Source: Promineifilum sp. (GTDB taxonomy: Bacteria; Chloroflexota; Anaerolineae; Promineifilales; Promineifilaceae). Taken from it: a stretch of DNA of 41,524 bases. Under the pieces are notes generated by a model. That model saw only the letters and a program-made list of their open reading frames with translations, was not told where the DNA came from and made no database searches. The position numbers and the translations under genes are program-made. Location of the stretch: contig JACFOH010000019.1 of the NCBI GenBank assembly GCA_019454405.1, positions 1-41,524 of the forward strand, read 5' to 3'. The first letter of the stretch is position 1, and each line of letters begins with the position of its first letter. Positions 2,367-4,964 of this stretch are shown here, one piece after another.

Positions 2367-2960
2367 ATGCTTACAGAAGATAAACGACTGGCCAGCCAGC
2401 TCGATTTCCTGATCGAGATGGACAAACTAAAAAGCATCCAGCGGCACTCGCTATTGGTCAATGGCTCGCGCGCGGAGAACTCAGCCGAGCACAGCTGGCA
2501 TCTGGCGGTCATGGCCATGATCCTGAGCGAATACGCCGGCGAGGCGGTCGACGCAGGTCACGTGGTGCGCATGCTGCTGGTACATGACATCATCGAGATC
2601 GACGCCGGAGACACTTTCGCCTATGACATCCAGGCCAATCTGGACAAGGCCCAACGCGAGAGACTTGCTGCCGACCGGCTGTTTGGGTTACTGCCTGAAG
2701 ACCAGGCAATCGAGCTCCGCGCATTATGGGAAGAGTTCGAAGCCCGAGAGACTGGCGAGGCGCGCTTCGCCCACGCGATGGACCGGCTCATGCCGCTACT
2801 GCATAACTATCTGAATGAAGGCGCGACCTGGGTGAAGAACGGAGTGACGCTCGAGCAAGTGCGACGACGCACGGCGGCTATCCCTGATAGTTCAGAAACC
2901 CTGGGCCGTTTCGTCGAGGCGATTCTGGCGGCCAGCCTGGAACGCGGCTACATCAGGTAG
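2367..2960 (+). CDS. HD-domain phosphohydrolase (YfbR/HDDC2-like)
   Basis: A soluble 197-residue HD-superfamily protein. Metal-binding residues are visible as H42 in SAEHSWH, the H73-D74 doublet in [13 protein letters not shown], and a later Asp in HAMDRLMP. The length and the order EHSWH...HD...D match the YfbR/HDDC2 group, whose studied members remove phosphate from 5'-deoxynucleotides; that substrate is family knowledge and has not been shown here. A purine-rich stretch (GGAGAAGG and AAGAGG) precedes the ATG. It ends the plus-strand run, and its last eight bases overlap the 3' end of the convergent MBL-fold gene. Confidence 0.85.
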
Positions 2961-3729
2961 GCGTTCCCATTCGGGCGTAAAATCCGGACAGGTCCAGCGC
3001 GTCGCCGGGGTCGAGCACGCACACCTGCACTTCGGGCGCGATTTTATTGGCGTGCCGGGCAAATTCATAAGGCGTCCGGTTTGTCCGGTGGGACATTAGC
3101 GGGCGTAATCCTAACGGGAAGTAAGTCCCCCAATGAATCGGAATAGCCAGGGATGGTTGCAACATCTCCAGCGATTTGGCCGCGCGATACGGATTCATGT
3201 GGCCTGCTCCAAGCGTTGGCCCCCAACCCCACACCGGCAACAGCGCCACATCGGTCATCCGACCGATGGCCGACATCCCATCGAACAGGTCGGTATCACC
3301 CGAGAAATATATGTTACGACCGCCCTGCATAATATAACCCAGGCAGTCGGTCTGCGGCCGGCCGGGGATCGACCGCCCGGCGTGTTCCGACGGAGTCGCC
3401 TGAATAGTAACGCCGCCAACGCGCAGACTCTCTCCTGCGGACAACTCGGTCACATGATTGAAACCGTGTCGCGAGAGATATTTGGCCGAGCCACGCGGCG
3501 CGACCAATTGCCGATCCCAGCCCAGCAAGCGCAAGGAGCGCAAATGCACATGATCAGCGTGAAGATGGGAGAGCAATACAACATCCAGGCGCTCCAGGTC
3601 CAGCTCTGGAGTCCGGGACATCCGCATCAGGTGGCTCACACGAGGGGTTAGTAGCGGGTCGGTCAGGATGCGCACGCCGTCCAGCTCGATAAGCAAGGTG
3701 GCATGGCCAACGTATGTAACTTGATTCAC
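2953..3729 (-). CDS. MBL-fold metal-dependent hydrolase (UlaG/NAPE-PLD-like)
   Basis: A 258-residue metallo-beta-lactamase fold protein. Metal ligands are visible in HLHADH (55-60), a downstream His in PSEHAG, the FSGDTD segment and the late HWGTYFP. The order and length fit the UlaG/YtnP-like Zn-dependent hydrolase branch (lactonase, phosphodiesterase or RNase-like substrates in known relatives); the substrate here is unknown. The start is a GTG at 3729 and no Shine-Dalgarno site is visible. A CATAAT element lies only seven bases upstream, so the mRNA may be leaderless, although the matching -35 (TTAGGC, 18-base spacing) is weak. About 90 bases further upstream on the same strand is the terminator of the 8-codon unit, so this gene could also be reached by read-through from it. 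Confidence 0.85.
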
Positions 3730-3821
3730 ATGTTGGATTATGGCAAAACGTTTCCCGATCGCCTAATGGACTTCAGCGGATTATCATGTTCGTCGCCCGG
3801 CCGGCCGGGGGGTCCAAAATA

Positions 3822-3852
3822 AAAACCTGGCGATTGCTCATCGCCAGGTTTT
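3822..3852 (-). terminator. Intrinsic terminator after the 8-codon ORF
   Basis: A perfect 13-bp stem (3822-3834 with 3840-3852) closes a 5-base loop. Read on the minus strand, the hairpin is followed by a T-rich tail: five T, one A, four T. The stem begins inside the TAA stop codon of the micro-ORF. On the plus strand the T tract is only four bases, so termination should work mainly on minus-strand transcripts. Confidence 0.8.
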
Positions 3853-3877
3853 ATGTGACTGGATTCACCCCGTACAT
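3851..3877 (-). CDS. 8-codon micro-ORF (MYGVNPVT) with strong ribosome-binding site
   Basis: On the minus strand an AAGGAGGG Shine-Dalgarno sequence (3883-3890) stands five bases before an ATG, which opens a frame of eight codons ending in TAA. The predicted peptide is MYGVNPVT. The ribosome site is the best match to the 16S tail in the window, which argues that the frame is translated or that ribosomes load there. It is enclosed by its own promoter and a terminator, so the predicted transcript is only about 75 nucleotides. The peptide matches no family known to me. Possible roles are a leader peptide controlling read-through into the MBL-fold gene, a stand-alone tiny protein, or a small RNA that uses the ribosome site. 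It shows no run of one amino acid like those in classical biosynthetic attenuators. Confidence 0.55.
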   Translation of the reverse strand: MYGVNPVT

Positions 3878-3898
3878 AATGCCCTCCTTAGTCCAACA

Positions 3899-3926
3899 AT
3901 CATACCCTTATCCGTCAAGCTCACAA
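3899..3926 (-). promoter_or_regulatory. Sigma-70-type promoter for the 8-codon unit
   Basis: On the minus strand a TTGTGA -35 element (3921-3926) and a TATGAT -10 element (3899-3904) are separated by 16 bases. Transcription would begin near 3892, giving a leader of about 15 bases that contains the Shine-Dalgarno sequence. Confidence 0.55.
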
Positions 3927-4000
3927 GAGGCGGTCTACCGATCTTTTTCTATGTATTTTATTTAGTTCCTTGTGGGGGACAGCCTTGAATTATCCTGTGT

Positions 4001-4029
4001 TTGACGATTCCATTACGCTCTCATACAAT
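4001..4029 (+). promoter_or_regulatory. Sigma-70-type promoter for degV
   Basis: TTGACG (4001-4006) and TACAAT (4024-4029) are separated by exactly 17 bases. The predicted start is near 4036, about 50 bases before the degV ATG, and AAGGAG at 4073-4078 lies inside that leader as the ribosome site. Confidence 0.7.
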
Positions 4030-4088: not shown

Positions 4089-4943
4089 ATGTCCAAAACT
4101 AAAGTTGCCATTATCACCGACAGCACCGCCAATCTGCCCCCTGAAATCATCGAGGAACATCAAATCTATGTCATCCCGCAAATTCTGAATTGGGAAGGCC
4201 GGAGCCTGCTGGACCAGATCGACATCACAACGGCGCAATTTTACGAGCGACTGCCACTCTCGAAAGATCTGCCAAAGACCTCCCAACCGGCGCCGGGGCA
4301 GTTCACCGAACATTTCATGAAGGTGGCTGAGGGCGCAGATAGCATCGTTGCTATTTTCGTGTCGGAGCTTCTCAGCGGCACGATCCAGTCGGCTCATCTA
4401 GGGGCGGAGGCGATGGGCGACTACCCCATCGAGATCGTCGACTCGCGTTCCGCATCGTTAGGGTTGGGGCTGCTGGCAGTGGCGGCGGCTCGCTATGCGG
4501 CTGCGGGACACGATTACCGCGAAGTCGCCGAGTACGTCCGGGGACTTGTGCCGCGCATGCACGTTCTGTTCGTCGTCGACACGCTGGAATACCTCCACAA
4601 GGGCGGCCGCATCGGCGGCGCGAAGAGGCTTGTCGGCTCGATGTTATCGATTAAACCCGTTCTACACCTGGAAAATGGCCAGATCGAACCGCTGGCTTCC
4701 ATTCGCACCAAGAAGAAGGCCGTCCAGCATATGATGGACATCGTCCTGAAAACGATGAAGGGCAAGAAGCACATCCACGCCGGCGTCGTCCATGCCAGCG
4801 CCATAGGAGAAGCTCAGGCCATAGCCGACCACATTCGCGCAGAAGTGAATGTAGAGGAGCTTATCGTCACTGAACTCACCCCCGTAATCGGCGCCAATGT
4901 CGGCCCCGGCGTCGTGGGCATGGGTTATTACATCGAAGAATAA
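4089..4943 (+). CDS. DegV family fatty-acid-binding protein
   Basis: A soluble 284-residue member of the DegV family. These bind a single fatty acid; the FakB proteins of Firmicutes present it to the kinase FakA. Recognisable motifs are ITDSTANLPPE (9-19), the conserved TSQPAPGQF (64-72) and LLSGTIQSA, whose Ser and Thr residues contact the carboxylate in known structures, plus the later HKGGRIGGAKR and GxNVGPGVVG segments. The length equals that of family members. No FakA-like kinase lies in the window, so the partner is not evident. AAGGAG ten bases before the ATG sets the start; an ATG at 4081 is out of frame. It stands alone between its own promoter and a terminator hairpin. Confidence 0.9.
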   Translation: MSKTKVAIITDSTANLPPEIIEEHQIYVIPQILNWEGRSLLDQIDITTAQFYERLPLSKDLPKTSQPAPGQFTEHFMKVAEGADSIVAIFVSELLSGTIQSAHLGAEAMGDYPIEIVDSRSASLGLGLLAVAAARYAAAGHDYREVAEYVRGLVPRMHVLFVVDTLEYLHKGGRIGGAKRLVGSMLSIKPVLHLENGQIEPLASIRTKKKAVQHMMDIVLKTMKGKKHIHAGVVHASAIGEAQAIADHIRAEVNVEELIVTELTPVIGANVGPGVVGMGYYIEE

Positions 4944-4964
4944 CGGCCGGCCCCGGCCGGCCGT
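4943..4964. terminator. GC-rich palindrome between convergent genes, probable bidirectional terminator
   Basis: ACGGCCGGCC at 4943-4952 is followed after two bases by its exact reverse complement at 4955-4964. It begins at the last base of the degV stop codon and precedes the convergent regulator gene. No T-run follows on either side, so termination efficiency is uncertain. Confidence 0.5.

Follow-up and report, generated by a model that had tools for sequence, protein, structure and literature searches.

Most characterized bacterial small RNAs act by pairing with mRNAs or by titrating a protein. SprF1, a ribosome-binding type I antitoxin RNA of Staphylococcus aureus, is reported to carry a purine-rich 5′ segment that binds ribosomes, lowers mRNA loading and attenuates initiation (PMC8938821; PMC8158120). 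In Haloferax volcanii, initiation is inhibited by Val-tRF, which acts on 16S rRNA of the small subunit close to the mRNA channel; helix 45 and the anti-Shine-Dalgarno (anti-SD) sequence are disordered (PMC8938821; PMC11009984). The site of the GTPase Era on 16S rRNA consists of GAUCACCUCC and helix 45 (PMC10582724). No bacterial small RNA that pairs with the anti-SD is reported in the titles and abstracts listed by searches of an open-access literature of incomplete coverage.

The locus considered here lies in a 41,524-nucleotide stretch of a Promineifilum sp. genome (the window), where positions 3926 to 3816 of the minus strand are well supported as a stand-alone gene, predicted in one genus, for a non-coding small RNA. 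The predicted RNA resembles SprF1 in being small and having a purine-rich segment, and we propose the same mode of action for it. SprF1, however, is an antisense antitoxin encoded with SprG1, whereas no toxin partner is apparent for the small RNA here among genes of at least 80 amino acids, none of which overlaps the unit. The conserved part also differs, being in this case a long complement of the 16S tail followed by a terminator. We know of no sequence relationship between SprF1 and this RNA. The likeness to Val-tRF, also at the level of the proposal, is that of a small RNA that would act on the 16S rRNA of the small subunit and inhibit initiation, but Val-tRF is an archaeal tRNA fragment for which no anti-SD complementarity is described, and the RNA here would have a dedicated gene. 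The Era site is the same 16S segment as the proposed target. Era is a protein assembly factor, and the RNA would either keep it off this segment or intervene at the same step; because the two sites coincide, a role in 16S 3′-end maturation is an alternative. The CsrA-sequestering RNAs (CsrB and RsmZ) likewise have GGA motifs in open or loop positions. CsrA (PF02599) is absent from all eight genomes of the genus and was found in control genomes, so a CsrA sponge of this type is excluded.

The anatomy described in the earlier note, with a promoter, ribosome site, ATG, eight codons, TAA and stem, is present on the minus strand. The promoter (TTGTGA-16-TATGAT) is located where claimed, at 3926-3899, and has 9 of 12 matches in total; its −35-like box (TTGTGA, 3921-3926) is weak, and relatives have a CATG-like box at the same place. 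The −10 element (TATGAT, 3899-3904) is part of an extended −10, TGNTANNNT, in six of the eight genomes, and reads GGGTATGAT here. Upstream, an A-rich block (AAATAAAATACRTAGAAAAAGATCG, 3938-3963, minus strand) apparent in the eight-genome alignment is a candidate UP element or regulator site, and contains TACGTAG in the alignment of relatives. The predicted RNA, with its start placed from the −10 element, spans 3816-3891 (minus strand, about 76 nt). Its 5′ part carries a purine-rich SD-like site (AAGGAGGG, 3882-3889), followed by the ATG (3877-3875) of a mini-ORF of eight sense codons and TAA (MYGVNPVT*, 3851-3877). Within the latter lies an 18-nt conserved core (ACGGGGTGAATCCAGTCA, 3856-3873), and the TAA overlaps the foot of a 13-bp intrinsic terminator stem-loop (3822-3852), directly followed by TATTTT in a T-rich tail to 3816. 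The combination of a strong ribosome site, a short ORF and an adjacent terminator exceeds chance, occurring once in the window (at 3877) compared with 0.07 times on average across 30 Markov shuffles. The expected spacing of the parts holds in the window, but that of the translation-related parts is not conserved in relatives.

We gathered and aligned the sequence upstream of degV, which is divergent from the unit, across the genus, in eight related genomes that amount to perhaps five lineages. The unit is at the same place in all eight, with promoter and terminator conserved. Invariant in the alignment are GGGGTG, a C, GTC and parts of the terminator, and the conserved core can be written GGGGUG(N3)YCRGUCR. 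No 6-mer other than GGGGTG is common to all eight regions; in 500 shuffled sets, a shared 6-mer never arose. The promoter is represented by the extended −10, the CATG-like box near −35 and the A-rich block. The terminator stem, whose loss in relatives was named in the earlier note as grounds for doubt, survives and co-varies: seven of nine tested pairs are changed on both sides, and over the whole structure pairing is kept in 99% of cells, compared with 20-44% when partners are slid. Of the other two features named there, the ribosome site persists as a purine-rich stretch (AGGAGG or GGAGG in most genomes) that is degenerate in G002 and G007, and the reading frame is lost. A conserved promoter and a co-varying terminator around an ORF that is not conserved favor the small-RNA gene among the options first offered.

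With a covariance model, every one of the eight genomes yielded a single strong copy (64-83 bits), scores that are circular because the model was built from these same sequences; position, shared core and co-varying stem are the facts independent of it. Outside the genus, the next matches in the family reached at most 37 bits, those inspected (L084-L087) were bare terminators, and the core was absent from all outside loci examined. Among 396 genomes of the class, matches at E ≤ 1e-7 were confined to the genus, and no copy was recognized beyond it. No family of Rfam 15 reached its gathering threshold, and the best sub-threshold matches were terminator-like. The matches listed by a scan of genome contigs with a loose pattern were chance ones, and a looser pattern applied across the family mostly picked up a repeated palindrome in coding sequence. 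In this connection, GRGGTGNANYCRGYCR has 35 matches in G064 (L235, L259-L273) compared with 2 for its reversed control, and also occurs in G013 and G023. The copies that were read share TCGGCCGA, mostly within open frames; this is a highly iterated palindrome, unrelated to the small RNA.

When the RNA is folded alone, the purine-rich site is largely open and the core weakly paired. Support for an outer stem that would close the core hairpin (TTATGT/ACATAA in the window) is suggestive only, with a permutation p of about 0.055. In G002, G007 and G005 (L039, L041 and L042), the 5′ part can fold so that the G-rich site lies in a hairpin loop; a palindromic 5′ hairpin of another kind is present in G003 and lacking in the others.

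The core (GGGGUGAAUCCAGUC) is similar, in reverse complement, to the 16S rRNA 3′ end, which was recovered in three of the eight genomes as GGAAGGUGCGGCUGGAUCACCUCCUUUU. Its proposed target there, GCGGCUGGAUCACCUCC, comprises the anti-SD, the linker and the foot of helix 45. All eight cores are predicted to pair with the genus 16S tail in a single register, at −21.9 to −29.3 kcal/mol (p ≤ 0.005 in each species against shuffled cores), around one bulge kept in all (a two-base internal loop in G003 and G005). Against a 16S tail taken as unfolded, net pairing over 12 nt amounts to −5.6 to −11.4 kcal/mol, and a duplex reaching into helix 45 has to meet the cost of opening that helix. As a common target of the eight cores, the 16S tail sums to −206.6 kcal/mol (background mean −102, sd 23). 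It ranks first among 1494 windows across 3 kb of the rRNA operon, and among 9222 background windows is outdone only by two overlapping ones, both the antisense of the gene itself. Joint column permutation did as well in 0 of 4000 trials, and in 11 of 4000 with GGGGTG held in place. Substitutions in the core between species are less costly to 16S pairing than random ones are (p = 0.011), a self-hairpin of the core is not protected by them (0.99), and the columns that stay invariant are the ones at which a change would be most costly to 16S pairing (p = 0.018); all these pairing tests share the same eight related sequences and a target chosen after inspection. One in 500 of the 21-mers in the window pairs with the 16S tail as well as the G000 core does, G003 and G005 have one A·A mismatch with it, and G·U pairs occupy two invariant columns where a perfect match would be possible.

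Several other explanations of the locus can be weighed against these data. That it encodes a micro-protein, as the earlier note allowed, or a leader peptide seems very unlikely, even with a strong SD-like site five bases ahead of the ATG in G000 and G004 and five core codons (G-V-x-P/S-V) open in the frame of the window in all eight genomes. Start codon, frame and stop are not kept across the genus. The ATG exists only in the sister pair G000 and G004; elsewhere its place is taken by ATT, ATA or neither, which argues against a peptide. G003, G005 and G006 have a TTG in another frame, G002 and G007 a stop after four codons (MYAG*), and G001 no start codon, while variation at codon positions one and two equals that at the third. 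The same note considered a leader controlling read-through into the MBL-fold hydrolase gene (2953-3729, minus strand), which does lie downstream on the strand of the unit in G000, G004 and G007, but only in these three of the eight genomes. In the other five, the downstream gene is convergent with the unit, being an FtsX-type permease in G001, G003, G005 and G006 and an indole-3-glycerol-phosphate synthase in G002 (identified by Pfam in G003 and G002, with the other three permeases clearly similar by eye). This orientation indicates an independent RNA of about 75-95 nt instead of a leader. The MBL gene is on another contig in G003 and G005 and was not found in G001, G002 and G006. With no conserved alternative anti-terminator fold, and neither the leader ORF nor the co-directional regulated gene of a leader-peptide attenuator kept across the eight genomes, cis-acting control of the hydrolase gene is the least credible of the readings.

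The lasting neighbor of the unit is degV (DegV family, 4089-4943), on the plus strand and divergent in all eight genomes, with a promoter (TTGACG-17-TACAAT) at 4001-4029. This constant association, together with the near-palindromic form of the core (GACnGG..CCnGTC), could be read as a DNA operator with an incidental transcript. We consider such an operator highly improbable, given that the invariant GGTG sits in the non-symmetric middle, that the core is 130 bp beyond the −35 of degV in the window, and that a promoter and a co-varying terminator flank it in every genome. Pairing with the degV 5′ UTR (GAATTCACC in G000 and G004) is complementary by eye, but was rejected because core changes in other genomes are not followed. 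Between the RNA and degV promoters is a block, TTCAGGGTTATCCCCC (3971-3990, minus strand), that is conserved in G002, G004 and G007 and is a possible shared regulator site. At the degV end, a GC-rich hairpin (ACGGCCGGCCGGGGCCGGCCGT, 4943-4964) between two convergent genes is likely a shared terminator. A more serious competitor, which we regard as possible if somewhat doubtful, is that the G-rich core has specific mRNAs or an unknown protein as its partner, its 16S match being a by-product of SD-like composition. Pure antisense would need neither the invariant G·U positions nor the constant bulge, and many C-rich sites can pair with G-rich cores. The 16S match, however, reaches past GGGGTG (the 11 of 4000 permutations above), the 16S tail outranks background targets, and CsrA is missing from the genus as a protein partner.

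We prefer to read the locus as encoding a small RNA aimed at the ribosome, which would pair with the 16S 3′ end in competition with mRNA and work in the manner of SprF1, and we assign this reading a probability of roughly 0.45. Action on ribosomes is suggested by the near-complementarity of the best-conserved stretch to the 16S 3′ end; transcription, the start site, ribosome binding and the effect on initiation are all inferred from sequence. The RNA would be transcribed from its own promoter and would offer the 16S 3′ end two sites, the AGGAGG-like site and the core. Aided by the purine-rich 5′ site, the core could then pair with the 16S 3′ end in free 30S subunits, covering the anti-SD and the GGAUCA linker and maybe reaching the foot of helix 45. 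Bound RNA would compete with the Shine-Dalgarno pairing of mRNAs, so that initiation might be damped or 30S subunits held in reserve. More specifically, and tentatively, the RNA may be a natural antisense to the functional 3′ end of 16S rRNA that serves as a global initiation brake, a 30S reserve factor or a chaperone of 16S 3′-end maturation.

The locus indicates that a ribosome site, an ATG and a terminator in close succession need not imply a peptide. In vitro tests of a regulator directed at 16S rRNA would be easy, given a 16S tail that is close to universal. If the proposal is true, a stand-alone gene with a conserved part nearly complementary to the mRNA-finding site of the ribosome would be a simple and general regulator of translation.
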